Positions 408 to 17,761 of a DNA stretch of 20,789 nucleotides are shown one piece after another. How positions within the stretch are numbered: the first letter of the stretch is position 1; each line of letters opens with the position of its first letter. Source of the stretch: an uncultured SAR324 cluster bacterium (GTDB lineage: Bacteria > SAR324 > NAC60-12); contig CABXOR010000033.1 of assembly GCA_902513935.1 (NCBI GenBank), forward strand, positions 1 through 20,789, in the 5' to 3' direction. The translations under genes and the position numbers were made by a program. Below the pieces are notes generated by a model. It searched no databases. It was not told where the DNA came from and saw nothing but the letters and a program-made list of their open reading frames with translations.

Positions 408-1481
408 CTAGATCACCTTGCCGCGGGCCGCAACTTTTTCTTCACCAATAACCTGCCCGTCACGAACAAGCCAAACTGAATCGGCGATGTTCGAAACGAC
501 ACAACAGTGGTTCGGAATGATGCGGATCCTTTCACCGATGGCGGGTCGCCAATCGGTTTTCGATAAATCAATTGTGCCGTGCTCTTCATTGAGAGTACAG
601 ATCGACGCATCGTTGACGCCCAGAATATAGCCATAGCCGTTCAGGCCCAGCAGGTCGGATGTCAGGGTTTTAGATCCGGCGTCGATAATTGCACGGATAT
701 CGGTGGGGCAACTAACGACCGTTGCCAGAACCGTCAGTGCACAGTTTTCGACTTCACACACGCCTTTTTCGATCAGTGAGCGATCATTGTAAACATAAGT
801 GCCGGAGCGGTGTTCAGTAGCAATTTCAGAAGTATGTGCGTGCCACATATTCGGACTTCCACCGCTTGAAATCAAATCGCACTCAAGGCCCGCTTGATTA
901 ATTTGTAATTTGGCTTCCACCAGCCAGTCATTAACATCGATTTGGTCCTGGGCGGATCCAAACGGTGGATACGTCATCAATCCGGCAAAGTGTAAACCTG
1001 GCAAAGCTTCAACAACCTGTGCAAGCCGGGCCGCCTGTTCATGGTTTTGGACACCACAACGACCAGCACCGGTGTCACATTCGATCAATACCGCGAGGCT
1101 TTGTTCTGCATCAGCAAAGCCATCTGAGAGACCGCTAATAACCGTGTCACTGTCTGCGACAACACTTAGCCTGCATCGTTCATTCAGGGCACGTAGTTTA
1201 GCTATCTTGGTTTTTCCGATAATGTTGTAGGTGATCAGGATATCCTTGATCCCGGCATCGGCCATTACCTCAGCCTCGCTGATTTTCTGGCAGGTAATGC
1301 CAACCCCGCCGACCGCGACCTGTCGATGGGCAAGACGTGGCAGTTTGTGTGTTTTAATATGCGGCCTGGATTTGATGCCATGGACATCACAATAGGCCTG
1401 AAACTTATCAATATTGGCTTCTGCTATGCCGATATCCACTAGTACACAAGGCGTTTCCAACTGATCAATTCCCATTCTCAT
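408..1481 (-). CDS. D-threonine aldolase / D-serine dehydratase-like PLP enzyme (metal-dependent type)
   Basis: This is a fold-type III PLP enzyme: an alanine-racemase-like N-terminal barrel followed by a DSD1/D-threonine aldolase C-terminal domain. Counted from a GTG at 1490, the PLP lysine motif R-P-H-I-K-T-H-K is at residues 42-49 with Lys46 the likely Schiff-base lysine. The C-terminal P-N-H-C-C motif gives His328 and Cys330, matching the HxC zinc ligands of D-serine dehydratase and D-threonine aldolase. Members cleave D-threonine-type beta-hydroxy amino acids to glycine and an aldehyde, or dehydrate D-serine to pyruvate and ammonia; sequence alone does not separate the two. I prefer the in-frame ATG at 1481 (or 1475) over the GTG; none has a clear ribosome site. 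It lies 168 bases downstream of ridA on the same strand, which favours an enamine-forming dehydratase. GC was about 53% in two 60-base lines counted, higher than most neighbours. Confidence 0.85.
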   Translation of the reverse strand: MRMGIDQLETPCVLVDIGIAEANIDKFQAYCDVHGIKSRPHIKTHKLPRLAHRQVAVGGVGITCQKISEAEVMADAGIKDILITYNIIGKTKIAKLRALNERCRLSVVADSDTVISGLSDGFADAEQSLAVLIECDTGAGRCGVQNHEQAARLAQVVEALPGLHFAGLMTYPPFGSAQDQIDVNDWLVEAKLQINQAGLECDLISSGGSPNMWHAHTSEIATEHRSGTYVYNDRSLIEKGVCEVENCALTVLATVVSCPTDIRAIIDAGSKTLTSDLLGLNGYGYILGVNDASICTLNEEHGTIDLSKTDWRPAIGERIRIIPNHCCVVSNIADSVWLVRDGQVIGEEKVAARGKVI

Positions 1482-1658
1482 GAAAGACACCGTTTGTTTT
1501 TGTTTTCTGGCATGCTCATTTTCTATTAAGTCACTAATGGAAAAGTATAGAGGAGGTTTATGAGGTTACATTAACATACCAATCCCATATTTATCACGAT
1601 ACAAAGGGTAAGATTCTCATCTTTATTTGAAAGTATGGATCTTTAAAAAAGCTCTATA

Positions 1659-2048
1659 TTACGATAGCGTTTTATAAGCCACCACGTCAGCTTCTATCTT
1701 TGCATCTACAACCAATTTCGACTGAACTGTAGAACGGGCGGGCGGATTTTTAGGAAAATTCTTAATGAAAACTCTATTGAATCCTGCAAAATCTCGAGTA
1801 TCATCCAGCCACACATTTACTTTGATTACGTCTTCCATTCCACAACCTGCCATCTCTAGAATATTTTTAATGATCTCAAACACCTTATGTGCTTGGACTT
1901 CAATTCCCCCAGAGATAATTTCTCCTTGATCGTTCATAGCTGTCTGTCCTGACACATAAACATAATCTCCTGCACGAACAGCTGGACTGAAAGGTAAGCT
2001 CTGCCCACCAGAACCTGACCGAATGTCTCCAATACATTGTTTGTTCAT
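1659..2048 (-). CDS. ridA: RidA family reactive intermediate/imine deaminase
   Basis: At 129 residues it has the usual length of the YjgF/YER057c/UK114 family. RidA trimers hydrolyse reactive enamines and imines, such as 2-aminoacrylate released by PLP dehydratases, to keto acids and ammonia in the cytoplasm. The conserved ending is visible: P-P-A-R-S-T-V at 102-108 with Arg105, and the acidic residue Glu119 in K-I-E-A-D-V-V-A-Y; these correspond to the substrate-binding arginine and catalytic glutamate of the family. The YVSGQ motif is at 31-35. It is transcribed toward the D-serine dehydratase-like gene, so the pair could form an operon in which RidA removes that enzyme's product. Some relatives act instead in ring-cleavage or aminomuconate pathways, so the exact substrate is open. 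Confidence 0.88.
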   Translation of the reverse strand: MNKQCIGDIRSGSGGQSLPFSPAVRAGDYVYVSGQTAMNDQGEIISGGIEVQAHKVFEIIKNILEMAGCGMEDVIKVNVWLDDTRDFAGFNRVFIKNFPKNPPARSTVQSKLVVDAKIEADVVAYKTLS

Positions 2049-2846: not shown

Positions 2847-4121
2847 ATGAGAAAACCAATCATAATTTTATTAATAGCATCATTCTGTTTCCTCGGTACA
2901 GCATTAGCGAAAGATACTGATGTCGAATTGACAGGGTGGCCCTATCAGGTGGATGTAGTGAAGGAGAACCTAGGACGTTTTGCCAGCCAGTCAGGCCTCA
3001 GTGCCACATTCAATCCCTTTCCGAGTAATGAGTACCATACCAAGATGGTCGCCAGTTTTACCTCAGGGACGAATTTTGATGTGGTCTATGTTCGGGACAG
3101 TTTTCTGGCTGAATGGGCCTCAGCGGGTTGGATCGTCCCAATCACAGGTTTACCAGGGGTTGATGATTACATGGCAGACTTGCCCCAGGGAATCATTGAA
3201 CAGATGTCTTTTGAAGGAGAAGTATACGGACTTCCTTATTACTCAGGAAATTCAGTATTCGTATATAACCAACGTCTATTAAAAAAAGCAGGGATAAATT
3301 CACCTCCTAAGACTTGGGATGAATTAACGAAGCAAGCCAGTACCCTGAAACAAAAGGGAGTTGTTAGAAACCCTATTGTGATCGGCTTGGCAGCTAATGA
3401 AAATTCAATCCTCAGAAATTTAGAAATCGTTTCTGCTGGGTTTGGAGGTAGGTTTTTCAACGACAAGCTTGAGCCAGTGTTTCATCATAAAAACAGCGGG
3501 GTTAAAAAAGCCCTTGCTTGGATTGCAGATGGGATTAGTAAAGGTGTTATAAATCGAGCCTCTATTAGTCAGGGAGACGGCGAGATTGACAAATTCATGC
3601 GTTCAGGAACAGCAGCTTTCACCATCGTTACAGATTATGAGATGAAAGTTTTGAATGATCCGAAAAAATCCGATGAAGCAGGGAACATCAAAAATGCTCT
3701 TGTACCCGGTTCCGCAGATGCTGTTAGTGGTACCATTGGATATGTCCGATTATATTCCATTACCTCTGAAGCTGATAAAGCTAAAGCTTGGAAACTTGTT
3801 CAGTTTCTTGGAGGGAAAGATGCAACAGGTGCTTATTATGTCCCAAAAAGATGGGCACTTGAATTTGGACTCGGCTTTTCACCAGCCCCCCTTTACAAAG
3901 ATGCTGCCGTGAGGAATTCCATTTCAGGATGGATCAACCCCGATATACTTCAAGAGCAGGCAAAATATGGCATCAACCGTGCCTACCGATTCGTTCCTTA
4001 TTTTTCGGATTGGGAGTCAGAAGCCTGGAGTGAATTTCAGGAAATCATCAATGGTGGCGAAATGGATAGTAGTTTAGATAAATTGGCTAAAAATTGGAAT
4101 GAATTGAAAGCAGAATATTAA
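2847..4121 (+). CDS. ABC transporter solute-binding protein, carbohydrate family 1
   Basis: The 424-residue product is a periplasmic family-1 (MalE/UgpB-like) solute-binding protein. It has a Sec signal peptide of about 21 residues (basic M-R-K, hydrophobic core, A-L-A before K-D) and no lipobox cysteine, so it should be soluble in the periplasm. Recognisable parts are V-V-Y-V-R-D-S-F near residue 75, the Y-G-L-P-Y-Y segment near 127, the hinge-like V-Y-N-Q-R-L-L-K-K-A-G-I and P-K-T-W-D-E-L typical of sugar-binding members, and an aromatic-rich C-terminal lobe. The start has a good AAGGAG site 7 to 8 bases upstream. It is first in the cluster with two permeases, so it sets the specificity of import. 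Neighbouring enzymes argue for a sugar-acid or acylated substrate rather than a simple disaccharide, but the ligand cannot be read from sequence. Confidence 0.9.
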   Translation: MRKPIIILLIASFCFLGTALAKDTDVELTGWPYQVDVVKENLGRFASQSGLSATFNPFPSNEYHTKMVASFTSGTNFDVVYVRDSFLAEWASAGWIVPITGLPGVDDYMADLPQGIIEQMSFEGEVYGLPYYSGNSVFVYNQRLLKKAGINSPPKTWDELTKQASTLKQKGVVRNPIVIGLAANENSILRNLEIVSAGFGGRFFNDKLEPVFHHKNSGVKKALAWIADGISKGVINRASISQGDGEIDKFMRSGTAAFTIVTDYEMKVLNDPKKSDEAGNIKNALVPGSADAVSGTIGYVRLYSITSEADKAKAWKLVQFLGGKDATGAYYVPKRWALEFGLGFSPAPLYKDAAVRNSISGWINPDILQEQAKYGINRAYRFVPYFSDWESEAWSEFQEIINGGEMDSSLDKLAKNWNELKAEY

Positions 4122-4164
4122 TCTTTGAAAAGCTAATTGGATTCATTCGGGGCATGCAGCAAGT

Positions 4165-5073
4165 ATGTCCCGATCGACTATGGTTGTTCTTAAAAATAAA
4201 GAAATTTCTCCCGGTAAACTGGCACTTTTCTTTAGTGCTCCAGCCCTTTTTGTCCTTACGGTTACAGTCCTGATACCCATCATTTATGCTGTTTATTTGA
4301 GCCTGTATCGATACAAACTCAAACGTGCGAAGAAACCTTTTGTTGGGTTACAGAATTATGAAAAAATTCTGACTGATGAGAAATTCTGGGACTCGTTGAC
4401 GACAAGTTTAATTTTTGCCGTCAGTGTTGTAGGGGTGATCATTACAGTATCCTTTTTTCTGGCTTTGTTACTGGATCAGGATTTCCCAGGTAGGGGCTGG
4501 CTAAGGGCTCTGTTGCTCATACCCTGGGCAATTCCAGATGTTGTGAATGCCTTGTTATGGAAGTGGTTGCTACATCCTACATTTGGTGTTATGAATGCTT
4601 TATTTTCCATGGGGGGCCTCATAGATGAATACGTCGCCTGGTTAAGCAGCATGCCCAGTGCAATGATTTGGGTCGTCATTGCCTATTCCTGGAAGAACAT
4701 ACCCTTAGCAACACTGTTGATACTTGCAGGATTGCAGACGGTATCCAAAACTCTTCATGAAGCAGCAATGGTTGAGGGAGCTAGTGCATGGCAAAGAACA
4801 TTAAACATTACATTGCCTTTACTCAGGCCAACCTTGACGGTGGTATTGATATTCGAAACGATTTTCGCCCTCAAAGTCTTCGACCTGATTTATATCTTAA
4901 CCTCAGGAGGCCCGGGTAGATCGACTGCGGTTCTGGGATGGAACATTTATATCAATACATTTAAGAAACTGGATTTTGGTTCAGGAAGTGCGCTGGCGAT
5001 GATTTTGGGATTGATCACACTTTTTCTTGCAATCTTTTTTTACTCATTTCTTGATCGAGGCGAACGGCAGTGA
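4165..5073 (+). CDS. ABC transporter permease, MalF/UgpA type
   Basis: This 302-residue inner-membrane protein has about six hydrophobic segments, the first near residues 22-45. The EAA loop that docks the ATPase is E-A-A-M-V-E-G-A-S-A-W-Q-R, then T-L-P-L-L-R-P, near residues 199-221. The segment S-L-Y-R-Y near 47, G-L-Q-N-Y, and the late F-D-L-I-Y-I-L-T-S-G-G-P-G motif are typical of the first permease of family-1 sugar importers. The stop overlaps the next permease by four bases (GTGA), so translation is coupled. The start is uncertain: neither ATG 4165 nor the in-frame ATG 4180 has a good ribosome site. It pairs with the 297-aa permease as a heterodimer. Confidence 0.9.
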   Translation: MSRSTMVVLKNKEISPGKLALFFSAPALFVLTVTVLIPIIYAVYLSLYRYKLKRAKKPFVGLQNYEKILTDEKFWDSLTTSLIFAVSVVGVIITVSFFLALLLDQDFPGRGWLRALLLIPWAIPDVVNALLWKWLLHPTFGVMNALFSMGGLIDEYVAWLSSMPSAMIWVVIAYSWKNIPLATLLILAGLQTVSKTLHEAAMVEGASAWQRTLNITLPLLRPTLTVVLIFETIFALKVFDLIYILTSGGPGRSTAVLGWNIYINTFKKLDFGSGSALAMILGLITLFLAIFFYSFLDRGERQ

Positions 5074-5963
5074 AGCGAAATAAATTAAAGCGTTATATTC
5101 TGATTTATCTTGCATCCGCGGTTTTCCTCACCGTGTTTATCGGGCCCTTCCTCTGGTTAGTCAGTTCCAGTTTACAGATGGAAAACCAGCTCTTTAAGGT
5201 ACCTCCTGTATGGCTCCCGAATCCAGTCAGCACGGAGAGTTACCGTGAGATTTTCATGGGAGCTATATATGATGAATCTTATGTTTCTGTCTACGGAAAG
5301 AGTTCGTCTTATCAGGCAAGGATATATTTAGGATCCTTCTTAAATAGTTTGATCATTGCTTTAAGTGTTTCTTTTTTTAGTGTCCTGTTTGGAGCTTATG
5401 CTGCCTATCCCATTGCAAGGATGGATTTTAAAGGAAAATATTTCCTTTTGTTCTCCATTCTAGCGGTCAGGTTGGTACCTGCTCTGGCGTTGGCAATCCC
5501 AATCGTATTGTTTGCTAAAAAGATGGGAATGAATGACAGGTTAATCACGCTTATATTCATCAACATGTCATTTGTTTTACCCTATGTCATTTGGCTTCTT
5601 CAAGCTTATTTCAAAACCATTCCATCTGAATTAGAGGATGCTGGAAGAATTGATGGATGCAGTCGTTTTCAAGTCCTCAACAAGATTATTTTACCATTAT
5701 CCCTCCCTGGTTTAGTGACCACTGGAATTCTGGCATTTTTACTTTCCTGGGGAGAATTCCTGTTTGCGCTACTGATTACAGAAACCGAAAAATCCTTTAC
5801 CAGTACTGTGGTTGCAGCTATGTTTGCCACCATGGTTGGGGATATCAATTATGTTACTATCATTGCAGCCGGAGTACTTGCAGTCATCCCACCGGTATTA
5901 TTTGCTCTCTTTTTTCAGAAATACATCATGAGCGGCCTGCTTTCAGGCGCCGTCAAGAACTAG
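5070..5963 (+). CDS. ABC transporter permease, MalG/UgpE type
   Basis: The second, 297-residue permease starts with GTG in a four-base GTGA overlap with the preceding gene, with GAGG ten bases upstream. Its single N-terminal membrane segment (residues 9-32) ends in S-S-S-L-Q, typical of the MalG side. The EAA loop reads E-L-E-D-A-G-R-I-D-G-C-S-R-F, then I-I-L-P-L-S-L-P-G-L, near residues 188-215. The last segment ends K-Y-I-M-S-G-L-L-S-G-A-V-K, a common tail for this family. With its partner and the binding protein it makes a three-gene importer that lacks its own ATPase: no Walker A/ABC-signature gene occurs in the window, so an ATPase encoded elsewhere (MsmK/UgpC-like) must energise it. Confidence 0.92.
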   Translation: MKRNKLKRYILIYLASAVFLTVFIGPFLWLVSSSLQMENQLFKVPPVWLPNPVSTESYREIFMGAIYDESYVSVYGKSSSYQARIYLGSFLNSLIIALSVSFFSVLFGAYAAYPIARMDFKGKYFLLFSILAVRLVPALALAIPIVLFAKKMGMNDRLITLIFINMSFVLPYVIWLLQAYFKTIPSELEDAGRIDGCSRFQVLNKIILPLSLPGLVTTGILAFLLSWGEFLFALLITETEKSFTSTVVAAMFATMVGDINYVTIIAAGVLAVIPPVLFALFFQKYIMSGLLSGAVKN

Positions 5964-6072
5964 CATCCTATCTCTTAAATGAATCAAAAAGAGAAAAAAT
6001 ATTGATAACTATGAGTTTCATCAAACGATTAACTCAGATTAGGAGTAGGGAAAAAACTTAAATTAAAGTCTT

Positions 6073-6588
6073 ATGCCGTTCAACATCAAAAAACGTGGAA
6101 AACTGACTTATTACTTTGAAGGAGAGGCTCCCGTCCTGTCTGCGATGGTAGTAGAGGAGCAGATGGATGGAGACCTTAGGATTCATTTTTCAGGATTGAC
6201 AGGTGGCCATTCTGCCACAGGGATTTTGAATCTGGACACGGTAACCAGCATGGAACCCTCGATCGAAGTTCCATTGGTATTTCGCTGTTGGGAGCAGTGG
6301 TTGCAGGAAGCCGAACTGTGTCAGTCGATTGGGGAGATTGACTTCATTGAAATCCATGCATTCGGTGCACAGCCAAAAACGCCCAGCCCTCTTTCAGATC
6401 CTGCTGGATATCGTCGGGAGCAAGAAAGGGTGCGTGCGGAATATGCTAAAGCGTATCGAAATTTTTTCAAGGAACAATGTCCGGAAAATGGAGTTCCGGC
6501 ACGCTTCACAGTCCATGTGGTGGATTTCCCTGATGAAGCCGCTTCATATGAATTTTATGCTGTCGGGCTGCTTCAAGGTCGACATTGA
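6073..6588 (+). CDS. Unrecognised 171-residue cytoplasmic protein
   Basis: I do not recognise this family. The ORF starts at the first ATG after an in-frame TAA at 6064. It has no signal peptide or membrane segment. The N-terminal 75 residues look beta-rich (T-Y-Y-F-E-G, then L-R-I-H-F-S-G-L-T-G-G-H-S, then I-L-N-L-D-T-V-T). A charged, probably helical stretch (R-R-E-Q-E-R-V-R-A-E-Y-A-K-A-Y) spans roughly 114-132, followed by an F-T-V-H-V-V-D-F strand and a Y-E-F-Y-A-V-G ending. It lies 109 bases after the permease and 42 before the SelA-like gene, in the same direction. Codon use resembles its neighbours, so it is a real gene and most likely an accessory subunit or small enzyme of the same pathway. 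It could equally be a small substrate-modifying fold; no catalytic motif is evident. Confidence 0.75.
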   Translation: MPFNIKKRGKLTYYFEGEAPVLSAMVVEEQMDGDLRIHFSGLTGGHSATGILNLDTVTSMEPSIEVPLVFRCWEQWLQEAELCQSIGEIDFIEIHAFGAQPKTPSPLSDPAGYRREQERVRAEYAKAYRNFFKEQCPENGVPARFTVHVVDFPDEAASYEFYAVGLLQGRH

Positions 6589-6630
6589 AAAAAAGTCATC
6601 CACCATCATGCATCCACTGAAATATAAAAC

Positions 6631-7737
6631 ATGACTTCGTCTTACGACTCGCTTGGTATCCGACCCATCATCAATGCCCTAGCAAGCTTGACCATGTTGG
6701 GCGGATCGCTCATGCCTGATGAAGTTCGAAAGGCCATGGATCAAGCTGCAGGTTCGTTTGTGGATCTTCATGAACTGCAATTGAGTGTTGGGGAACGCCT
6801 CGCAGAATTGACACACAACGAAGCGGCCTATGTAAGTTGTGGTGCAGCTTCAGGGTTACTTCTTGCAACTGCGGCCTGCATTTCCAGGCATACTGCTGAT
6901 GCATATGAGGATTTCTCCAAATTGAATGGAGTTCCAAACGAAGTAATCGTGCAGAAGATGCATCGTAATTCATATGATTATGCGGTTCAAGAGGCCGGAG
7001 CCAAAATGGTGGAAATAGGCAGTAATGAAGGAACTCAAATCGAAGATCTGGAACAAGCGGTCAGTCCTGAAACCGTTGCAATTTTTTGGTTTCAAGGGGC
7101 GATGAACGGTCCTTCCGAATTGTCCCTGAAAAACGTGATTCGATCTGCAGGCAAGCATAAGGTTCCGGTAATCGTGGATGCTGCCGCTCAACTTCCTCCG
7201 GTTTCAAATCTATGGAATTTCACTCAGCAAGGAGCTGATCTTGTGATCTTCAGTGGAGGGAAGGATCTGGCCGGTCCACAGGCATCAGGGCTTATTCTTG
7301 GGAGTAAGGATCTGATTGAACGAATTCGGGGTTATGGAGCTCCCTACCATGGGGTGGGGAGACCAATGAAGGTGGGCAAGGAGGAAATGATGGGGCTACT
7401 TGCAGCAGTGGAACGTTACCTAAACCTAGATCATGAAAGTCTACTTCAAACTTATGAAAAACGGGTTCAATTTTGGATCAGCGGTCTTGATGGAAAGAAA
7501 GGGATCCTTGCCCAGCGGGATTACCCCAATGAAGCAGGACAGCCTGTTCCTAGAACACGAGTTGAATTACCCGTTGAAGTGTCAAAAGAAGAAGTGATTG
7601 ATGCTCTGATGAAGGGGGAACCAAGAGTGGCAGTAGCTCCTTCAGAAAACGGGAATGCTTTGCTGCTGAATCCAATGACCGTAATTGATGGGGAATCTGA
7701 AATTGTACTCGAACGACTCTTGCAGGTTCTTGGTTGA
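6631..7737 (+). CDS. SelA-like PLP-dependent lyase (DgaE-type)
   Basis: The 368-residue protein belongs to the fold-type I PLP group related to selenocysteine synthase SelA and to D-glucosaminate-6-phosphate ammonia-lyase DgaE. The N-terminus G-I-R-P-I-I-N-A, the small-residue turn S-C-G-A-A-S-G at 69-75, Asp183 in V-D-A-A-A-Q (PLP pyridine contact) and Lys211 in F-S-G-G-K-D (Schiff base) are all visible. It is about 90 residues shorter than bacterial SelA and sits among catabolic genes, so it is not the tRNA-Sec enzyme. Known relatives eliminate ammonia and water from 2-amino-sugar acids to make 2-keto-3-deoxy acids. An amino-sugar-acid substrate is therefore a reasonable inference, helped by kdgK and eda nearby, but other amino acids are possible. 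The ATG at 6631 has no clear ribosome site. Confidence 0.85.
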   Translation: MTSSYDSLGIRPIINALASLTMLGGSLMPDEVRKAMDQAAGSFVDLHELQLSVGERLAELTHNEAAYVSCGAASGLLLATAACISRHTADAYEDFSKLNGVPNEVIVQKMHRNSYDYAVQEAGAKMVEIGSNEGTQIEDLEQAVSPETVAIFWFQGAMNGPSELSLKNVIRSAGKHKVPVIVDAAAQLPPVSNLWNFTQQGADLVIFSGGKDLAGPQASGLILGSKDLIERIRGYGAPYHGVGRPMKVGKEEMMGLLAAVERYLNLDHESLLQTYEKRVQFWISGLDGKKGILAQRDYPNEAGQPVPRTRVELPVEVSKEEVIDALMKGEPRVAVAPSENGNALLLNPMTVIDGESEIVLERLLQVLG

Positions 7738-7809
7738 CTAAGGCTTTATTGACAAACGAGCATAAAAGTTTCCTTAATTGAATTTCACACAAATTTTTGA
7801 AAAAGCTTC

Positions 7810-8736
7810 GTGACTCAACGTGACCCTTCTAAATACGGAACTCAGGTGATCAAACCTGATGATTTTGACATATTCTGGGGTGAGCTTCTTGAACGCTCCG
7901 ACAAAATCCCTCTCAATGTATCGCTAACTCTGGATAGCATGCGTTCAACCGAACAGGTTGATGTGTTTGAGGTGCATTATGATAGCCTGAACTCTTTAAG
8001 AGTGTTTGGATGGTATTGCCTTCCCCGTTTGAGACCGCGACCTCTTGCGGCAAGGGTCTTCTATCCGGGATACATCAGTGAACCCACTCTTCCTAAGGCT
8101 CATGCAGAACAGGGGTATGCTACCTTTGGTGCCGCTCCACGAGGCAAATTGAGGAGCAACCGGCAGTTCAACCCTGGATATCCAGGGCTGTTGACCCACA
8201 ACCTCGTCGATCGTCAAAGTTATGCTTATCAGGGATTTTATCTGGATGCAATTAGGGTGATTGATTTCCTGACAGAGCAACCAGAAGTAGACTCTGAACG
8301 GATAGGAATCCAGGGAAGCAGTCAGGGAGGTGCTTTGACTCTGGTGGCGGCTGCTTTAAGGCCTCAGGTAAAGGCCGCATCTGCAGGAGCACCTTACCTT
8401 ACTGGGGTTGTGGATGCTATCGATCTAACACGCACCTATCCATATGAAGAGATCAACGACTACCTCCGTCTGCATCCCCAAAACCGGGATGCGATGGTCA
8501 AAACTTGGAATTACTATGATTGCATCAATTTCGCTGACCGCATTAAATGCCCTATCATCCTCTACATTGGACTTCAGGATGATGTATGTCCTCCAGAAAC
8601 CGCCTACCCTCTAATGGATAAAATTCAGTCTACTGAAAAAAAACTTTACGCTTATGATGGGCATGGACATGACGCAAATTTCCATGTGCATGACCAGGTG
8701 GTTGAAAACTTTTTTGACAATCAGTTAAAAACCTAA
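7810..8736 (+). CDS. CE7-type acetyl esterase (acetylxylan esterase/cephalosporin-C deacetylase family)
   Basis: This 308-residue alpha/beta hydrolase lacks a signal peptide, so it acts in the cytoplasm, probably removing an acetyl or other acyl group after uptake. The nucleophile elbow is G-S-S-Q-G-G with Ser171; Asp257 in G-L-Q-D-D-V-C-P-P and His285 or His287 in D-G-H-G-H-D complete the triad. The CE7 framework is clear: Y-P-G-L-L-T, S-Y-A-Y-Q-G-F-Y-L-D-A-I-R, then P-E-V-D-S-E-R-I. The family's R-G-Q motif reads R-G-K here (111-113). The reported start is GTG 7810; GTG 7846 would give a protein beginning V-I-K-P-D-D-F, matching the start of the following paralogue. It is 72 bases after the SelA-like gene and is followed by a non-catalytic copy of itself. 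Confidence 0.88.
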   Translation: MTQRDPSKYGTQVIKPDDFDIFWGELLERSDKIPLNVSLTLDSMRSTEQVDVFEVHYDSLNSLRVFGWYCLPRLRPRPLAARVFYPGYISEPTLPKAHAEQGYATFGAAPRGKLRSNRQFNPGYPGLLTHNLVDRQSYAYQGFYLDAIRVIDFLTEQPEVDSERIGIQGSSQGGALTLVAAALRPQVKAASAGAPYLTGVVDAIDLTRTYPYEEINDYLRLHPQNRDAMVKTWNYYDCINFADRIKCPIILYIGLQDDVCPPETAYPLMDKIQSTEKKLYAYDGHGHDANFHVHDQVVENFFDNQLKT

Positions 8737-8775
8737 AGTGGTGAAAACTTCAGATTCCTAAATAAAGAGAGAACC

Positions 8776-9642
8776 ATGAAACCTGATGACTTCAGTTCCT
8801 ACTGGCTTCAATTGGAACAGGAACTCATTCGAGTTGAACCAGCACCAGAATGCACAGAAATCTCTCTTCGGTCCACTCCAGAAGGCAAGGTGTTCGGATT
8901 GCTACTTACGAGTCTTGGAGGGTACCGAATTTTTTCTTATTACTGCGTTCCTCATGGAAAAGGACCTTTTCCGGTCATTTATCGTCTTCCCAACTATGGT
9001 AGTGTGGTCCACATCCCTCCTTTCGAGGAACGTTGCAATCACATTTCAATTGCTTTATGTCATAGAGGACAGAGGCTTTCTGATGAACCCTTTGCTGCTT
9101 CCTATCCAGGACTGTTGACACAAGGCATTGAATCACCTCAAACTTATATTTACCGGGAGATTGCTAGTGATTGTCTTAGAGTAATGGATTTTCTCCTGAC
9201 TTGTGAAGAAGTAGATCATCGTAGAATTAGTCTGGTGGGTGGGGATCTGGCTTTCTGGACTGCTGCAATGCGTCCTCAAGCACTTACATTGTTTTATACT
9301 CCTTCTATGTTTTACAAATCTCTACAAAAAGCCTCTTCAAGCAGTCATTATCCTCTTGAAGAATTCAATGACTATTTTAGGGCTTTTCCAAAATCTAGGA
9401 AACAGGTTGAGACGACGTTAGAATACTTTGAGCCCATGAACTTTGCTCCATGGGTATCTAGTTCGACAATGATGATGGAAGAGTCTGAAGGAGATGGAGA
9501 TGACTTGGCGGCGGCCTTTGGAAGAGAGATTGATCGGTGCACTACCTATCATTCCAGCTTTCGGGATGGAGTTTTTCAGGCTCAATGGATTGCGGATAAA
9601 CTCAAAACAGGGAAGCCACTTCTTCCTAAACATTGGTCATAA
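8776..9642 (+). CDS. CE7-like esterase paralogue without catalytic residues (pseudoenzyme)
   Basis: The intact 288-residue ORF is collinear with the preceding esterase: M-K-P-D-D-F, Y-P-G-L-L-T, Y-R-E-I-A-S-D-C-L-R-V-M-D-F-L, Y-P-L-E-E-F-N-D-Y. The nucleophile elbow is gone: where the neighbour has G-S-S-Q-G-G, this one has G-G-D (155-157) followed by what looks like a four-residue deletion. The acid-residue region (S-S-S-T-M-M-M-E-E-S-E-G-D) and the histidine region (F-R-D-G-V-F-Q) also lack the triad. The CE7 R-G-Q motif, implicated in oligomer packing, is kept (97-99). The frame has no stops, so the protein is probably made; GAGAG precedes the ATG. It may be a structural or regulatory partner of the active esterase, since CE7 enzymes are oligomers. 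Early decay of a duplicate is the alternative. Confidence 0.85.
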   Translation: MKPDDFSSYWLQLEQELIRVEPAPECTEISLRSTPEGKVFGLLLTSLGGYRIFSYYCVPHGKGPFPVIYRLPNYGSVVHIPPFEERCNHISIALCHRGQRLSDEPFAASYPGLLTQGIESPQTYIYREIASDCLRVMDFLLTCEEVDHRRISLVGGDLAFWTAAMRPQALTLFYTPSMFYKSLQKASSSSHYPLEEFNDYFRAFPKSRKQVETTLEYFEPMNFAPWVSSSTMMMEESEGDGDDLAAAFGREIDRCTTYHSSFRDGVFQAQWIADKLKTGKPLLPKHWS

Positions 9643-9764
9643 AAGAGGAATTTTATCTATAATACACCAGGTTTCATCTGTAAAATTATTAATTTGAATG
9701 AAATTACTGGAAGAACTTGGTAAATTGGAACCTACCTTCAAGAATCTCTATTATTTTTCACACC

Positions 9765-10520
9765 ATGGAAATGCGAATCAATCCTGACTTTCCGAAAAGA
9801 CCATACCGAAACAAGGTGGATGCTTTAAAAGAAATCGGTGCTGCCACGATTAGTGCAGAACTCAAACATATTGCTGGCATAAAGGATTCATTCATGATGG
9901 GGCCTAAATCCTGTACTCTTGGTAAAACAATTGGGGGGCCCGCCATCACCCTCCAATTCATGCCCATTCGAGAAGATTATTATCAAGATGCTGAGGAGTA
10001 TCAAAATGTCGAGGAACAGCTTCATCGTCATGCTCTTTATCTTGCTCAAGCTGGTGATGTGGTTGTGGTAGACGCTAGGGGAGACTTGAGTAGTGGTGTT
10101 TTTGGAGAGATGATGCTTGCCTATTTTCATGGAAAGGGTGGAGAAGGTGTGGTTCTGGACGGTTGTATCCGGGATTCTAGAAAAATTCTTGAAACAGGAC
10201 TTGGAATCTGGTCGAGGGGATTTACCCCTAATTATCATATCCAGACGGGAATTTTCCCCTTTTGCGTAAATGATCCTATCTCCTGTGGAGACAGGCTTGT
10301 TTTCCCGGGAGATATTATCGTTGCAGATGATGATGGTGCAGTCGTGGTACCATTAAAACTAATAGATGTTTTGCTTGAAAGTGCAGGGGGGCACAAGGAG
10401 TGGGAAGAATTCTCAAAACTCAAACTTTCAGAGGGAGGAGACTTGCGTAAATACTACCCTCTCAATGAAGAGGCGCAGAAGGAATATGAAGCTTGGAGCA
10501 AGAACCAAGGGGAAATATGA
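9765..10520 (+). CDS. RraA family aldolase/decarboxylase-like protein
   Basis: This belongs to the RraA/HMG-CHA aldolase family (formerly labelled dimethylmenaquinone methyltransferase). Class II pyruvate aldolases of this family cleave 4-hydroxy-4-methyl-2-oxoglutarate-type compounds or decarboxylate oxaloacetate using a divalent metal; the RNase E inhibitor RraA is a non-enzymatic relative. The motif L-D-G-C-I-R-D-S holds the Arg-Asp pair needed for catalysis (about residues 132-138 counted from the chosen start), then W-S-R-G-F-T-P, then P-G-D-I-I-V-A-D-D-D-G-A-V-V-V-P. I start at ATG 9765 (or 9771), because a TTG at 9717 would add 16 residues unlike the family. It closes the + cluster and could split the keto acid formed upstream. 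Its stop overlaps an ATG (ATGA at 10517-10520) that opens a truncated ORF. Confidence 0.88.
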   Translation: MEMRINPDFPKRPYRNKVDALKEIGAATISAELKHIAGIKDSFMMGPKSCTLGKTIGGPAITLQFMPIREDYYQDAEEYQNVEEQLHRHALYLAQAGDVVVVDARGDLSSGVFGEMMLAYFHGKGGEGVVLDGCIRDSRKILETGLGIWSRGFTPNYHIQTGIFPFCVNDPISCGDRLVFPGDIIVADDDGAVVVPLKLIDVLLESAGGHKEWEEFSKLKLSEGGDLRKYYPLNEEAQKEYEAWSKNQGEI

Positions 10521-10789: not shown

Positions 10790-11737
10790 TCAGGAGCGCA
10801 TTGTCCTTCCTAAAAATGCTGCAACGTCGTCACGGTTTGGAATGGAATCCACAGCTCCGTAATTGGTTGTGGATAACGCAGCGGCAGCATTGGCGTATTC
10901 AGCCGCGGCGAATGGATCATCACTTCTTAGCCATTCCGACAGGAACGCTCCGTCAAAAGTATCTCCTGCTCCGGTTGCATCAATAGCCTTCACGGCATGT
11001 CCGGAAATATAGCACTCATTATTTCCGTCGGCAACAAGAACCCCTTGCTCACCCTGCTTTAAAACAACTAATTTAGCTCCGAGTTTTAGATAATAATCAA
11101 TAATATCTTTTGGTTCCTTGAGTCCTGTTAAAGATGTGACATCATCCAAACTGGGCAGAAGTACATCACACATTGGTACAACATGGTTAATCACATTTCT
11201 TGCTTGATTTAAAGTCCAAAGTTTAAGCCGTAAATTAGTATCATACGAAATTTTTAATCCTCTTTTACGTGCATGATGAATGGCTGCAAAAGCTGTTTCG
11301 CGAGACGAATCACTAATTGCCTGAGTGATAGCAGACAAATGCAAAACTTTCGCTTGTGAAACAACATCAACCGTTACATCTTCCGGAGTCATTTGACTAG
11401 CAGCTGATCCTCTTCTGTAATAGCTGAAGTGATGGCCATTTTCGTCATGTGTAACAAAGTAAATACCTGTTGGAAACTCCGGATGCTGCAAGACATATGT
11501 GCAATTCACACCTTCTCTTTTCCACAACTCCAATAATTTTCTACCAAAAAGATCATTGCCTACTTTGCTCAAAAAACCTGAAGAAGTCTCCTGACGAGCA
11601 ACTGCGATAGCTGTGTTGGAGGTGTCTCCCCCAAATCCTGAACGATAAGTATTATTAGTGTCATCAGGAATTTGATTGAATTCTATTAGAGCTTCACCCA
11701 AACATAGTACATCCATTTTCATGTGATTTACTGTCAT
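10790..11737 (-). CDS. kdgK: 2-keto-3-deoxygluconate kinase (PfkB family)
   Basis: The 315-residue PfkB-family sugar kinase probably phosphorylates 2-keto-3-deoxygluconate with ATP to KDPG in the cytoplasm. The N-terminal G-G-D-T-S-N-T-A substrate turn is at 36-43. The Y-Y-R-R-G-S-A-A-S segment at 106-114 is characteristic of KDG kinases rather than ribokinase or fructokinase. The signature D-A-T-G-A-G-D-T-F-D-G is at 253-263 with catalytic base Asp259. The gene overlaps the stop of eda by one base (TAATG on the minus strand), so the two are translated together and form the classic KDG to pyruvate plus glyceraldehyde-3-phosphate pair. In the one 60-base line counted, GC was 22 of 60, much lower than the flanking D-aminoacylase. 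Fructokinase-like activity is the main alternative. Confidence 0.9.
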   Translation of the reverse strand: MTVNHMKMDVLCLGEALIEFNQIPDDTNNTYRSGFGGDTSNTAIAVARQETSSGFLSKVGNDLFGRKLLELWKREGVNCTYVLQHPEFPTGIYFVTHDENGHHFSYYRRGSAASQMTPEDVTVDVVSQAKVLHLSAITQAISDSSRETAFAAIHHARKRGLKISYDTNLRLKLWTLNQARNVINHVVPMCDVLLPSLDDVTSLTGLKEPKDIIDYYLKLGAKLVVLKQGEQGVLVADGNNECYISGHAVKAIDATGAGDTFDGAFLSEWLRSDDPFAAAEYANAAAALSTTNYGAVDSIPNRDDVAAFLGRTMRS

Positions 11738-12372
11738 TATAATCCAGCGGTTTTCTGCAAAACCTGCTTCCCAAGCTGAATTATAGTTTCTCGCTGACCT
11801 TCCAGAATCAGTCCTTCATTCACCAGTTCATCTCCAAGACCAACACACATAGCTCCGTTTTCAAGATATTGAGAAATATCATCTGATTTTACACCACCTG
11901 TAGGAATTAGGTGAACTTGCGGAAAAACCGACGAGAGCGCTTTCAAATAAGATGCTCCGCCCAAAAGGTTGATGGGGAATATCTTAACAGCGTCAGCACC
12001 CGCAATAACAGCACTCTGGACTTCAGTTGGAGTCATTGCTCCCAAAAAACACGGCACATCTTTTTGATGAGAAATTCCTGGCAATTCTTTTACAATACAA
12101 GGCGAAACCAGATATTTAGCTCCGGAATCAAGACAACGCTCAGCATGTTCTGCTGAGGTAACTGTTCCTGCACCAATCAAAAGATCTTTTCGTGAGGCGT
12201 ATTTAGTGATTAACTTAAATGCGTCCGGAATCGTCAGAGTTATTTCAAAAGTTCTAAAGCCCGCATCGGTTAACCACTCAATGGCAGTTTCCGCTATTTC
12301 TGGTGTACTTGCACGTACTACAGGAATGATACGTAATTTCCGGAGTCGTTTCAAAACAGAATTTAAAGCCAT
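11737..12372 (-). CDS. eda: KDPG aldolase (2-keto-3-deoxy-6-phosphogluconate aldolase)
   Basis: At 211 residues this is a class I KDPG/KHG aldolase. Lys130 in D-A-V-K-I-F-P is the Schiff-base lysine; Glu43 in F-E-I-T-L is the catalytic base; I-P-V-V-R ends with Arg20; G-A-G-T-V-T is at 67-72, and the phosphate-binding P-T-G-G-V is near 170. It cleaves KDPG to pyruvate and glyceraldehyde-3-phosphate. The E. coli R49 position is a threonine here (L-T-I-P), a change common in non-enterobacterial members. It is translationally coupled to kdgK and could serve a sugar-acid dehydratase such as the partial enolase-superfamily enzyme, or a DgaE-like lyase making KDPG. The 330 bases upstream hold a broken deacylase gene. 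Confidence 0.92.
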   Translation of the reverse strand: MALNSVLKRLRKLRIIPVVRASTPEIAETAIEWLTDAGFRTFEITLTIPDAFKLITKYASRKDLLIGAGTVTSAEHAERCLDSGAKYLVSPCIVKELPGISHQKDVPCFLGAMTPTEVQSAVIAGADAVKIFPINLLGGASYLKALSSVFPQVHLIPTGGVKSDDISQYLENGAMCVGLGDELVNEGLILEGQRETIIQLGKQVLQKTAGL

Positions 12373-12485
12373 TTAACCTCATTCACAACATTTAAGTTAT
12401 AAGTTCCATAACTGCTTAAAAAAGTTTAAATTTACATTCTTTCAAAAATTAAAAATAAGCATGCATAACAGCTGGTAATATCAGC

Positions 12486-12680
12486 CTAGAATTTCACAAG
12501 ATCACCGTGAACACCTCCGGTGAGGAGCAAAGTTGGGCCGTCTTTATTACCTCGAATCACCAACAAGGTTTGTTGAACGGCTTCGCCCTTTTAATCTGTA
12601 AAAATCTCAACTCTCAGAATTGTTTTGGAGTTTTTTCTAGTTTGGAAATTCTGAAGTCTTTTAGATCCAGTTATATTCAT
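12486..12680 (-). pseudogene. Remnant of a succinylglutamate desuccinylase/aspartoacylase family gene
   Basis: Read on the minus strand from ATG at 12680, one frame runs through an internal TAA (12591-12593) to TAG at 12486-12488. After the internal stop it encodes V-I-R-G-N-K-D-G-P-T, then L-L-L-T-G-G-V-H-G-D, the N-terminal core of the zinc carboxypeptidase-like AstE/AspA family, whose H-G-D-E supplies two zinc ligands. Here H-G-D is followed by L-V-K-F and a stop, so the glutamate and the rest of the enzyme are missing. It occupies most of the gap between the D-threonine aldolase-like gene (stop 22 bases away) and eda. Members deacylate N-acyl amino acids, which would suit the D-aminoacylase in the same run. 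Confidence 0.7.
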
Positions 12681-12702
12681 CAGTTTGTAAATGAATTTTA
12701 AT

Positions 12703-13782
12703 TCAGGCAGTTTTCCCACGGCCTTGAATTTTCCAAACTTTTTCGAGCTTTTGGTTCCTTAATCCACAGATTATATCATGGAGAAACACAGTGGCGTCAC
12801 CGTAACCAACCTGATAGTCAATCTTATCTCCAACCATAAGTGTGGTATTTTCATCTTTGAGTTTCAAAATCCCGTGTTCAGATGACATACTGACGTTTTC
12901 CAGTTCATTTAAATTTAATGGGAGAGGTTCTGCGATCCAGCCAGGTAGTGTTTTAAATCCAGCATCTGTGATTATCCTTTTTACCGTTGGTCGACTGGTG
13001 ATGCTGCTACGGACAAAGAGTGATGGTTGAGTGGATACTCCCCAAGACTTGTAGGCTTGATCTGTGAAAATAGCCCCTCCAGCCTGGATTTCGGTATAGA
13101 TATTAAAATCAGTAGATATTTGATATGTTGCACTACCGGCACCACTGATGATATTGAGTTGAATCTTCTCTTTCTCCAACTTATCGACTGTATCTATTAA
13201 ACTACGTAACGATTCCGTGATAGTTTCTTTTTTTTCGACAGGATTTGTTATTCCAACAGCATGTCCCTCCCAGGCCATCAACCCCTCAAAATTCAACCCA
13301 TCAAGACCGATGATCCTTTTGCAGAAGTCAAGAGTCTTAAAACCAGGAGCAACCCCCGCACGGTCCATTCCAACATTCACTTCAACCAAAACACCGATTG
13401 ATACATTTTTCAGTTTTGCAGCGTTAGCCATTTGTACTGCTATTCCATAATCATCAACAGCTACGATCACTTTAATTTTTTCAGCAAGATTACATAAGCG
13501 TTCGAGTTTACTGGTTCCCACCACCTGATTAGCGATGAGAATATTCCCGATACCGGACCCAGCCATTACTTCAGCTTCGCTCAGTATAGCGCAGGTTATT
13601 CCTGAAGCACCTGCTTCAATTGCCATTTTTGATATTTCAGGAATCTTGATCCCTTTAGTATGTGGTCTCCAGTTCAATTTTCGATCTCTGAAATAGGCAG
13701 AAAGACTGGCAATGTTTTCTTCCATCCTATCCAGATCAACCCACAAAAAAGGTGTATCCACGTTTTTAATGTTTTGGAGCAT
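12703..13782 (-). CDS. D-threonine aldolase-like PLP enzyme with altered metal site
   Basis: This 359-residue fold-type III PLP protein is a distant paralogue of the enzyme at the left end of the window. It shares L-x-W-V-D-L-D, R-P-H-T-K (39-43, Lys43 the probable Schiff-base lysine; K-G-I-K replaces the usual K-T-H-K), S-E-A-E-V-M-A, G-M-D-R-A-G and the C-terminal domain ending R-G-K. In the C-terminal metal region the family pattern H-x-C/D-x-T-V-N-L-H-D reads Y-G-D-A-T-V-F-L-H-D, starting at Tyr327. The metal-binding histidine is thus tyrosine and the cysteine is Asp329. It may act on a different D-amino acid, use a different metal geometry, or be metal-free; D-3-hydroxyaspartate-type aldolase or racemase activity is conceivable. 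It sits downstream of M81 and D-aminoacylase genes. No ribosome site precedes the ATG. Confidence 0.82.
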   Translation of the reverse strand: MLQNIKNVDTPFLWVDLDRMEENIASLSAYFRDRKLNWRPHTKGIKIPEISKMAIEAGASGITCAILSEAEVMAGSGIGNILIANQVVGTSKLERLCNLAEKIKVIVAVDDYGIAVQMANAAKLKNVSIGVLVEVNVGMDRAGVAPGFKTLDFCKRIIGLDGLNFEGLMAWEGHAVGITNPVEKKETITESLRSLIDTVDKLEKEKIQLNIISGAGSATYQISTDFNIYTEIQAGGAIFTDQAYKSWGVSTQPSLFVRSSITSRPTVKRIITDAGFKTLPGWIAEPLPLNLNELENVSMSSEHGILKLKDENTTLMVGDKIDYQVGYGDATVFLHDIICGLRNQKLEKVWKIQGRGKTA

Positions 13783-13919
13783 GCTAATTAAATAATTATA
13801 AATATAAATTGAATTTTCATACTTTCTTCAAAGACATAAATTCAACCATGGAATTTCACTACCACTTTAAATCAATGCGAATTTTATATTAATGAGATTT
13901 TGAGAAGATTTTTCCATAA

Positions 13920-15407: not shown

Positions 15408-15425
15408 AGTTAAATCACTTTAAAG

Positions 15426-16091
15426 CTAGAGAATACCATGATCGGCGAAGATTTTTTCCAGGCTTTCACCACTTGCAATTTTTTCCCGGACCATGTTTTC
15501 GTCCGATACTTTTTGCAGAGACTGATCCAATACTGTTTCCACCAACTTTTTTGGAATTATTACTACACCATCTACATCACCGAAAACCAGATCTCCCGAC
15601 TCCACATCTACTCCATGGATTTCCCCGGGAACATCATACCAGGTTAATTTCCCTCGGTACTTGGTGTCCACAGAAGTTATACCGCCTGTAAAGACTGGAA
15701 ATTTCATCTCACGTATGACGCGCACATCGCGTACAGATCCATCAGTGAGACAGCCAGCGGCTTGTAGATAACGAGCTCGGGTGGAAAGTAATTCCCCCCA
15801 AGGAGCAATGTGATTTAATCCGTGGCAAATGAGAACCGGAACTTCATCAGGCTGAAGGCTGTCTATTAGTTTTAGTTCCTTTTCATAGACTTTTACAAAT
15901 TCATCGTCATGGTAAATAGGCAAATAAAGCCCTACACGTGCCCATCCACAAAGAATGGAGGAATCATCCAGAGGGCGAATTCCGGGACTTAGAACCTGAT
16001 TCAAGTATCCTAATGAATCCAAAGTATCTGAAAGAACCGCTGAATAGAGTTTTTGTTTATGATTTTCTAGATTTTTTGTTTGTGGTTTCAT
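15426..16091 (-). CDS. RraA family protein (second copy)
   Basis: This is a second member of the RraA/HMG-CHA aldolase family, only distantly similar to the one at 9765. Visible motifs are A-P-W-G-E-L-L-S-T-R-A (the G-E-L/G-x20-R-D aldolase pattern), then T-D-G-S-V-R-D-V with the Arg-Asp pair, then G-D-L-V-F-G-D-V-D-G-V-V-I-I-P. Those active-site residues predict a metal-dependent aldolase or decarboxylase rather than a pure RNase E inhibitor. I prefer ATG 16091 because AGGA lies six bases before it; an in-frame ATG at 16118 has no ribosome site and would add nine residues. It is 18 bases upstream of the M81 gene and certainly co-transcribed with it. RraA-M81-aldolase neighbours suggest stepwise cleavage of a hydroxy-keto acid made from an amino acid. 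Confidence 0.88.
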   Translation of the reverse strand: MKPQTKNLENHKQKLYSAVLSDTLDSLGYLNQVLSPGIRPLDDSSILCGWARVGLYLPIYHDDEFVKVYEKELKLIDSLQPDEVPVLICHGLNHIAPWGELLSTRARYLQAAGCLTDGSVRDVRVIREMKFPVFTGGITSVDTKYRGKLTWYDVPGEIHGVDVESGDLVFGDVDGVVIIPKKLVETVLDQSLQKVSDENMVREKIASGESLEKIFADHGIL

Positions 16092-16279
16092 CTCATTTCC
16101 TGAATGTGCTTGATTCATTCATTAATTTTTTAATGCAATACCAGTTTGTTTTCCTGTTAAACGTCCTTTAGCTTTAATCTGAAATCTGTGAAGGCTGAAA
16201 TGTCGTGCTGTAAACCGGCTAAAAAGTTTATTTTTGAAAGCAGCGGTGCTGTCTAACTTACGTGCTAAGTCGGGGCAGA

Positions 16280-17761
16280 TTATTCCTGAGAAGTGTTAAA
16301 ACTGAATGGTGCCAGTTCCTGTAAACGCAGAGCACGACCCGGACGGTTGCCGGTGTGTTCACCGTCTTTCCAGACTATTCGACCGTTGACCATGACTTGT
16401 TCAATGCCCTGCGCGGGACAAATTGGGTCATCGAAAGTGGCGCTGTCTGTAATGGTGTCCGGATCAAAAATCACTAAATCTGCATAGTTTCCGGCCTTAA
16501 GTATGCCCCGATTCTTAAGACCAAAACAGGCTGCCGGTAAAGAGGTCATCTTCCGTACCGCTTCTTCCAGAGTGAACAGTTTGATATCCCTCACATAATG
16601 TCCCAAAATCCGTGGGAACGTTCCCCAAAGCCGTGGATGAGGGTGCGCGTCTGAAGGCAGTCCATCCGAACCGATCATCGTATTTGGAAAGGCCAGGATA
16701 CGGCGCACATCTTCTTCGTCCATCATGAAAAAGATTCCACCGCCAGGGCTGAGGGCTTCTACAGCTTCCTGTTCACTCATCGCGAGTTCCTCTGCAATTT
16801 CAAAGAGTTCCCTGCCTGCAGCTTCAGGGAACGGTTCTGACCAAGTTATTAAAACCCTCTCTGGCAGTAAATTGCCCATGGCTGAAAGTACGGTAGATCC
16901 GGCGGTATAGGGATAAGCGTCAAGTCCAAGTGGCTGCCCCTTACTCGCCTGATCAATCAGTGAGAGGGTTTCAGCAGAGCGTCCGTGATTGGGAGCTCCG
17001 CTGCATTTATGATGCGAAATAACCACTGGAATTTGCGCTTCGGCACCAATAGCAAAGGTTTCACGCAAAGAGTCTGCAATCCTTTCACCTTCGTCACGCA
17101 TGTGAGTCGTGTGTAAAGCTTTGTGCTCATAAAGGGCGTGAGCGAGCTCGATTACCTCTGAGGTTGGCGCCGCGTTTGCGGTAGCATAAAACAGTCCGGT
17201 ACTCATTCCGCAAGCACCGGCTTCCAGGGAATGCTCCAGCAATTTCCGCATCTTCCGGATTTCTTTTTCAGTTGCCGGACGATCATAAGAATCCATGACG
17301 GCTGCCCGGAGGGAGGTATGTCCAACCTGGCAAACTGCGTTGAGGGAAGGAGGATTTTTAGTTAATGCCTGAATATATTTGCCAAAATCGGCAAAAAATT
17401 GATCCCCACGCTCAACCAGTATATCGAGTGGAGGAGGTGGACTTTGGTCAATTCGCAAAGGTGCTAGGCTGATTCCGCAGTTTCCTGTAACCACAGTGGT
17501 TACGCCCTGACTGACCTTGCAATTCATCTTTGGGTCAGAGAGCAAAACTCGGTCATCATGGGTGTGTGTATCTATAAATCCGGGACAAACTACTTTTCCA
17601 GCAACATCGAGTTCACGACCTGCCTGAAGATCTCCCAACTCACCCACAGCCAGTAGCCGATCATCCAGAATGGCAAGATCACTGTATTGAGAAGAAGCGC
17701 CTGTGCCGTCTATAAGACGGGCGTTACGCAGAATAAGATCAGTTTTTTTAGTTTGAGACAT
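16280..17761 (-). CDS. D-aminoacylase (N-acyl-D-amino-acid deacylase)
   Basis: The 493-residue amidohydrolase matches D-aminoacylase closely in length and in residue numbering. His66 and His68 lie in D-T-H-T-H; Cys95 in G-N-C-G, the bridging zinc ligand typical of this family in place of a carboxylated lysine; His220 in T-T-H-M-R; His250 in I-S-H-H-K; Asp366 in G-S-D-G. It hydrolyses N-acetyl- or N-formyl-D-amino acids to the free D-amino acid and a carboxylate in the cytoplasm. N-acyl-D-glutamate or aspartate deacylases and dihydroorotase-like relatives are the alternatives. It is 49 bases downstream of the SDR gene. GC was 36 of 60 in one counted line, far above the adjacent SDR (25 of 60) and kdgK (22 of 60), so its history may differ from its neighbours. 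Confidence 0.92.
   Translation of the reverse strand: MSQTKKTDLILRNARLIDGTGASSQYSDLAILDDRLLAVGELGDLQAGRELDVAGKVVCPGFIDTHTHDDRVLLSDPKMNCKVSQGVTTVVTGNCGISLAPLRIDQSPPPPLDILVERGDQFFADFGKYIQALTKNPPSLNAVCQVGHTSLRAAVMDSYDRPATEKEIRKMRKLLEHSLEAGACGMSTGLFYATANAAPTSEVIELAHALYEHKALHTTHMRDEGERIADSLRETFAIGAEAQIPVVISHHKCSGAPNHGRSAETLSLIDQASKGQPLGLDAYPYTAGSTVLSAMGNLLPERVLITWSEPFPEAAGRELFEIAEELAMSEQEAVEALSPGGGIFFMMDEEDVRRILAFPNTMIGSDGLPSDAHPHPRLWGTFPRILGHYVRDIKLFTLEEAVRKMTSLPAACFGLKNRGILKAGNYADLVIFDPDTITDSATFDDPICPAQGIEQVMVNGRIVWKDGEHTGNRPGRALRLQELAPFSFNTSQE

Follow-up and report, generated by a model that had tools for sequence, protein, structure and literature searches.

A conserved SAR324 gene cluster for a SelA-like lyase, a candidate Rid-type partner, and an esterase/pseudo-esterase pair, probably for breakdown of modified amino-sugar acids

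Gene organization of the SAR324 locus

A cluster of eight genes, with a probable role in the uptake and degradation of modified amino-sugar acids, is located on contig CABXOR010000033.1 of an uncultured SAR324 cluster bacterium (GenBank assembly GCA_902513935.1), and the whole stretch analysed, 20,789 nucleotides in length, is hereafter referred to as the window. As in a preliminary description of this DNA, eight co-directional open reading frames (ORFs) were identified by ORF calling on the plus strand between positions 2847 and 10520, with intergenic gaps of 39-109 bases except for the two permease genes, which overlap by 4 bases. The Pfam matches are, in gene order, SBP_bac_1, BPD_transp_1 (twice), none (a protein of 171 amino acid residues, designated u171), SelA, AXE1 (twice), and RraA-like. 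The products of the operon are as follows.

2847..4121, plus strand: solute-binding protein of a sugar-type ATP-binding cassette (ABC) importer (424 residues; SBP_bac_1, E 3e-32; signal-peptide-like start as judged by eye)
4165..5073, plus strand: ABC permease 1 (BPD_transp_1)
5070..5963, plus strand: ABC permease 2 (BPD_transp_1; 4-base overlap with permease 1)
6073..6588, plus strand: u171, predicted Rid-fold protein and putative imine/enamine deaminase (R144 corresponding to the Rid catalytic Arg, E160 to the Rid Glu)
6631..7737, plus strand: DgaE/SelA-like pyridoxal phosphate (PLP) lyase (368 residues; TIGR01437, 210.6 bits, under the cut-off of 385.3; DGL, PDB 7lc0, E 4e-37)
7810..8736, plus strand: CE7/AXE1 esterase, active type (S171, H287; AXE1, E 2e-59; cephalosporin C deacetylase 1l7a, E 3e-50)
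8776..9642, plus strand: CE7 pseudo-esterase (AXE1, E 2e-19; nucleophile Ser replaced by Asp and catalytic His by Arg; 1292 relatives)
9717..10520, plus strand: RraA-like protein, putative aldolase of the PRK08245 type (RraA-like, E 5e-30; NF006093, 258.7 bits, above the cut-off of 208)

The start of the RraA-like gene is uncertain, being either TTG at 9717 or ATG at 9765 or 9771. Promoter-like matches were at chance level (23 versus an expected 23.7), and the Rfam scan gave no family above its threshold. The Pfam scan of 19 window proteins gave no ABC ATPase, and the importer encoded at 2847-5963 likely employs a shared ATPase encoded elsewhere.

All eight genes are present in the same order, with 96-100% identity, in another record (L001, CAJXDX010000077.1), and a partial core recurs in records of Chloroflexota, Spirochaetaceae, Trueperaceae, and Devosia, indicating that the gene order is not due to chance. 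Relatives of the binding protein with 52-60% identity adjoin the importer and u171 genes in 10 non-SAR324 loci. The conserved catabolic cluster proposed in the preliminary description is thus found in other genomes, and the refuting condition named there, absence of the neighbourhood from every other genome, does not hold.

The 171-residue protein

The protein u171, once considered an orphan, is so only with respect to Pfam and NCBIfam, in which no family was found for it: a total of 1660 relatives were reported (120 of them listed), 156 encoding stretches were found in genome contigs, and the predicted fold is RidA-like. With the better of two models, the 50 rows listed each by Foldseek and VIA all carried RidA/YjgF/UK114/L-PSP-type names or no family name. 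Residue R144 is invariant and was paired by hhalign with the PAR arginine of Rid proteins, with a score of 22.7 that was reached by none of 200 column shuffles. This Rid arginine is essential for imine hydrolysis by RidA and is the mark of the subfamilies predicted to hydrolyse imines (PMC4433059). E160 was paired with the Rid glutamate in one of the two hhalign runs, R144 with the arginine in both; these equivalents of Rid Arg105 and Glu120, assigned from a low-probability alignment, are both invariant. The mean column identity is 74% over the whole length (77 sequences), and u171 is about 40 residues longer than the RidA encoded in the window. A C-glycoside deglycosidase beta subunit (DUF6379) was considered as the identity of u171 and was dropped for lack of a supporting Pfam match.

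Compared with the Rid (RidA/YjgF/YER057c/UK114) family (PMC4433059, PMC8113886), u171 is alike in the predicted fold, the Arg/Glu positions, and the linkage to a PLP-dependent eliminating enzyme, but differs in that nothing exceeded the cut-offs of PF01042 and PF14588, in its 171 residues with insertions, and in its very high conservation. From the modelled fold, u171 appears to be a novel type of enzyme that clears away the unstable product of the adjacent ammonia-removing lyase.

Active-site residues of the lyase

The assignment of the next gene product to the DgaE kind, already made in the preliminary description, agrees with the match to DGL and with the PLP lysine kept in an SGGK motif as K211 (K213 in the 7lc0 chain, Lys-217 in PMC9529869); a second NCBIfam model gave 176.6 of 600 bits, so that both family models remained under their cut-offs. 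In DGL, His162 and His163 are strictly conserved, His163 being the proton donor, and the substrate phosphate lies near Arg301, Arg332, and Arg346 (PMC9529869). The alignment places Ala-Met at the two histidines of DGL and Arg, Ala, and Met at the three arginines, i.e. Arg301 is kept and the other two are replaced.

These sites were compared in 39 related genes from 37 of the 80 u171 loci (L071, one of the 80, is missing from gene-order counts, and the SelA-like gene of L056 is missing from this comparison). Among the 29 genes located within 1.5 kb of a u171 gene, none carries the His162-His163 pair (L075 aligns one His at 163), and Arg332 or Arg346 is present in none of the 27 having letters there. 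The pair was found in four genes, situated 1.6-5.5 kb from a u171 gene and 29-30% identical to the window lyase, while the remaining six, farther from the u171 gene, are also without it. The H163A variant of DGL sets free the enamine, and RidA is named as an enzyme breaking down such compounds (PMC9529869). By analogy, a lyase apparently lacking the histidines and encoded beside a predicted Rid-fold protein fits directly with the biochemistry of H163A DGL and RidA.

Linkage of the lyase to u171 and other Rid genes

A SelA-like gene is present in 38 of the 80 u171 loci. In a class sample of 298 genomes (25 with and 273 without a u171 gene), a lyase-like gene (E < 1e-40) was detected in 22 of the 25 versus 37 of the 273 (Fisher 1e-14, by hand count and with phylogeny ignored), and is located within 15 kb of the u171 gene in 13 of the 25. 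Among the 32 class genomes with a lyase of the close type (E < 1e-100), 17 carry a u171 gene somewhere and eight carry, with no u171 gene, a PF14588-type Rid gene about 3-5 kb from the lyase, the Pfam cut-off being passed in all eight. These eight (L213-L217, L219-L221), in which an M81-family gene is often nearby, are probably related species, so that the association may represent one event. Rid genes of either sort accompany 19 of 33 close-type lyase loci versus three of 29 of other types (hand count; Fisher 1e-4).

A common order elsewhere is an NAD-dependent sugar-dehydrogenase-like gene, the u171 gene, a PRK09237-type amidohydrolase gene (cut-off passed in 4/4 tested), and the lyase gene; of 79 loci, 25 have an amidohydrolase gene within six genes of the u171 gene, and in 18 it is the next gene downstream. 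The lyase/u171 pair is also carried by Devosia sp. Root413D1 (L046). One locus (L015) contains RidA, DSD1, u171, amidohydrolase, and lyase genes as a single run. The u171 gene is accompanied in Anaerolineae records by an importer of 52-60% identity and a sugar-kinase-like gene with no lyase, and in Poribacteria records by neither importer nor lyase, suggesting that the role of u171 is wider than this lyase. At four Poribacteria loci (L063, L067, L068, L069), the u171 gene is situated between CBM9-type and Amidase_3-type genes, with no lyase seen. Genes for an EcoRV-type endonuclease and a D12-class DNA methyltransferase were observed near another u171 gene (L043:12892-14730).

The esterase/pseudo-esterase pair

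The pairing of an esterase with a pseudo-esterase, likewise predicted beforehand, was recovered, the second AXE1 protein being without the nucleophile Ser. The catalytic Asp was taken to be the GLxD aspartate, as in CE7 enzymes. In a residue table of 16 related loci, the two CE7 genes are adjacent in all; the first esterase keeps Ser and His in all 16, and the second has the nucleophile Ser in none (one of two L007 fragments is unreadable at the site). L020, the eleventh of the 11 CE7-pair loci among the 80, is outside this table and carries Ser in the first esterase and Asp in the second. The mean column identity of the pseudo-esterase, 62% in 11 sequences, suggests that it is kept by selection. 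As judged from these residues, one of the two operon esterases is a conserved inactive copy, and the active and inactive CE7 proteins may form a heteromeric complex.

The first esterase resembles the known CE7 acetyl xylan esterase/cephalosporin C deacetylase in family match and active-site Ser/His, but differs in being paired, throughout the 16 loci, with a CE7 protein without both residues. A possible model for the pair is metformin hydrolase MetCaCb, described as a heterohexamer of two subunit types (PMC11271267), which belongs to an unrelated enzyme superfamily.

The pair is present in 11 of the 80 u171 loci and in four of the 298 class genomes, three of which have a u171 gene on the same contig. 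Because it is also found with no lyase or u171 gene nearby, for instance in a Poribacteria genome, it appears to be a module of its own. In Poribacteria L185 (9342-13065), the CE7 pair is followed by a GH127-type gene, with no lyase or u171 gene in the 20 kb examined.

RraA and the flanking genes

RraA (E<=1e-25) was detected in the same nine of 52 SAR324-phylum genomes as the u171 gene and CE7 pair, the match being partial in two of the nine, and the earlier view that RraA belongs to the cluster is therefore upheld. It directly follows the pseudo-esterase gene in L001 and in a SAR324 cluster bacterium record (L006), and a partial RraA follows it at the contig end in G002. This co-occurrence and these positions support RraA as an aldolase of the same metabolism. 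In five other SAR324-phylum genomes, RraA is near a DSD1-type gene with 50-51% identity to the window DSD1-type protein. One of these five (L275:1048-9375) was observed to carry together RraA, two MR_MLE sugar-acid-dehydratase-type genes, a DSD1-type gene, a PRK09237 amidohydrolase gene, and an SDR-like gene.

The operon is part of a larger catabolic region. On the other strand, RidA and a DSD1-type PLP enzyme are encoded upstream, and KdgK, KDPG aldolase, a D-threonine-aldolase-type enzyme, an M81-family protein, a second RraA, a D-aminoacylase-type protein, and an SDR downstream. The flanking features are as follows.

408..1490, minus strand: DSD1/D-3-hydroxyaspartate-aldolase-type PLP enzyme (PF14031 and PF01168; NF045642, 209 of 690 bits)
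1659..2048, minus strand: canonical RidA-family protein, divergent from the operon (PF01042, E 2e-27)
10790..11737, minus strand: KDG-kinase-type sugar kinase, convergent with the operon (PfkB, E 3e-60; best NCBIfam match KDG/KDGal kinase, 215 of 400 bits)
11737..12372, minus strand: KDPG/KHG aldolase (PF01081, E 3e-41; TIGR01182, 166.9 bits, above the cut-off of 156)
12703..13782, minus strand: D-threonine-aldolase-type PLP enzyme (PDB 7dib, E 3e-49)
16280..17761, minus strand: D-aminoacylase-type protein of the OngB family (D-aminoacylase, PDB 1m7j, E 4e-166; PpOngB, 9kb1, E 5e-129)

The flank gene set at 408-2048 and 10790-18563, enclosing the operon, is ong-like. In the window, KdgK and KDPG aldolase genes adjoin the operon; at the other SAR324 loci, some of which end there by contig, they were not seen beside it, and at the thresholds used KdgK was found somewhere in five of the nine operon-bearing SAR324 genomes and the aldolase in five. 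A complementary distribution of RraA and KdgK-aldolase among SAR324 genomes was also weighed and abandoned, since each of the nine genomes has an RraA match (two partial).

Proposed pathway and alternative explanations

From gene order, conservation, predicted fold, residue states, and co-occurrence, we infer every reaction and the substrate of the following pathway, to which as a whole we give an even chance. The importer would take up an acylated 2-amino-2-deoxy-aldonic acid, or else a beta-hydroxy-D-amino acid resembling it, which a presumed esterase/pseudo-esterase complex probably O-deacylates. The DgaE-like lyase would then dehydrate at C2-C3 with no prior phosphorylation, as suggested by the loss of two phosphate-binding arginines and by ABC import, and, being without the proton-donor histidine, should release the enamine form of the product as does H163A DGL. 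Its fold, invariant arginine, and gene linkage suggest that u171 hydrolyses this enamine/imine to a 2-keto-3-deoxy acid and ammonia, and the keto acid may be split by the RraA-like protein itself or via KdgK and KDPG aldolase. A more specific form, in which the u171 family is an undescribed Rid subfamily for amino-sugar-acid enamines, the lyase clade no longer has a proton donor of its own and leaves enamine clearance to another protein, and the active CE7 enzyme works only in complex with the conserved pseudo-esterase, is put forward tentatively and is itself doubtful.

A number of observations weigh against this pathway. For u171, the hhalign probability against Rid is just 8.8-8.9%; Pfam at E<=10 gave PF01042 in two of 28 sequences (best 0.04), did not list PF14588, and matched DUF896, apparently unrelated, in 10 of the 28 (best 0.0068); a profile search of PDB sequences returned no Rid chain; and the first and weaker of the two models had an unrelated periplasmic domain at the head of its Foldseek list, some further rows being unrelated as well. 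The histidine loss of the lyase is known from alignment alone, and other SelA-like subfamilies are also without the His pair, 26 of 29 such loci showing no Rid neighbour; a general need of His-less lyases for such a neighbour was rejected on this count. As to linkage, 42 of the 80 loci have no SelA gene in the DNA examined, many contigs being short; no lyase-like gene was seen within 15 kb in 12 of the 25 class genomes; seven of the 32 close-type lyase genomes have neither a u171 gene nor a Rid gene close to the lyase (for two, the contig is <6 kb); and all co-occurrence counts ignore phylogeny. In the nine operon-bearing SAR324 genomes, which are fragmented, KdgK was not found in four, nor the aldolase in four.

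The region might instead degrade beta-hydroxy-D-amino acids or N-acyl-D-amino acids rather than sugar acids, the lyase being a D-amino-acid dehydratase and u171 handling 2-aminoacrylate-type enamines. Such a role would account for the D-threonine-aldolase-type and DSD1-type enzymes and RidA in the flanks, for the D-aminoacylase-type protein being nearer D-aminoacylase (556 bits) than PpOngB (434 bits), and for the single run of RidA, DSD1, u171, amidohydrolase, and lyase genes in L015, but we regard it as unlikely in view of the sugar-type importer, KdgK, and KDPG aldolase, and of the sugar-acid-dehydratase-, sugar-dehydrogenase-, or sugar-kinase-like genes accompanying u171 or RraA elsewhere. 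It is also rather improbable that u171 has the Rid fold and is no enzyme, serving the lyase or amidohydrolase as a subunit, chaperone, or ligand sensor: its whole-length conservation (74%), its additional 40 or so residues, and its frequent amidohydrolase neighbour (25/79 loci, directly downstream in 18) would agree with this, but the catalytic Arg and Glu equivalents are invariant and in many loci u171 is apart from both lyase and amidohydrolase. A loose co-localisation of unrelated sugar-acid genes, with the second esterase as a decaying duplicate, agrees with the differing positions of RraA and KdgK/aldolase among SAR324 genomes, but is made very improbable by the adjacency of the CE7 pair in all 16 loci compared, the 62% identity of the pseudo-esterase, and the co-occurrence of u171, CE7 pair, and RraA in nine of 52 genomes.

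Relation to known pathways

The preliminary description knew of no described pathway of this kind, but the dga (PMC9529869) and ong (PMC9537276) pathways share its logic. The claim that no such pathway is described is not supported. The pseudo-esterase pair and the u171 partner are not named in the passages of these two papers that were consulted. With DGL/dga (PMC9529869; PDB 7lc0), the operon shares the lyase family, the PLP lysine, the expected 2-keto-3-deoxy product, and a KDPG-type aldolase, but it differs in ABC import instead of phosphorylation by the phosphotransferase system, in the replacement of His162/163 and Arg332/346, and in the Rid-like partner and esterase pair.

In the ong pathway, N-acetylglucosaminate is deacetylated, deaminated, and then phosphorylated, and deletion of the RidA-family gene ongD abolishes growth on N-acetylglucosaminate, its role being left open by the authors (PMC9537276). 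Common to ong and the region as proposed here are deacylation, deamination without prior phosphorylation, KdgK, and a RidA-family protein. The window flanks hold counterparts of OngB (closer to D-aminoacylase), OngD, and KdgK at the family level, a KDPG aldolase, and an enzyme whose likeness to OngC comes from annotation only. The ong system differs in its SSS symporter, whereas the operon has an ABC importer, a SelA-like deaminase, the CE7 pair, and RraA; no SSS symporter, TonB receptor, or GH20 hexosaminidase was found among the 19 window proteins scanned.

In the open-access literature, covered mostly at listing level, no paper was found in which a SelA/DgaE-type lyase and a CE7 pair occur together, and among the papers listed glucosaminate or KDG metabolism is joined with RidA only in PMC9529869 and PMC9537276. 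Three elements are new: a SelA-like lyase without the His pair, the Rid-like protein that accompanies it, and the pairing of esterase with pseudo-esterase. The present results provide a function hypothesis for a widespread hypothetical family (u171; 1660 relatives). If true, the operon lyase would represent a naturally occurring equivalent of the engineered H163A enzyme, making enamine release as a selected trade-off directly testable, and the pathway may help to explain why the ong pathway cannot do without its RidA-family protein OngD (PMC9537276). The conserved esterase/pseudo-esterase pair would offer a second case in which a bacterial pseudoenzyme partner can be put to the test.

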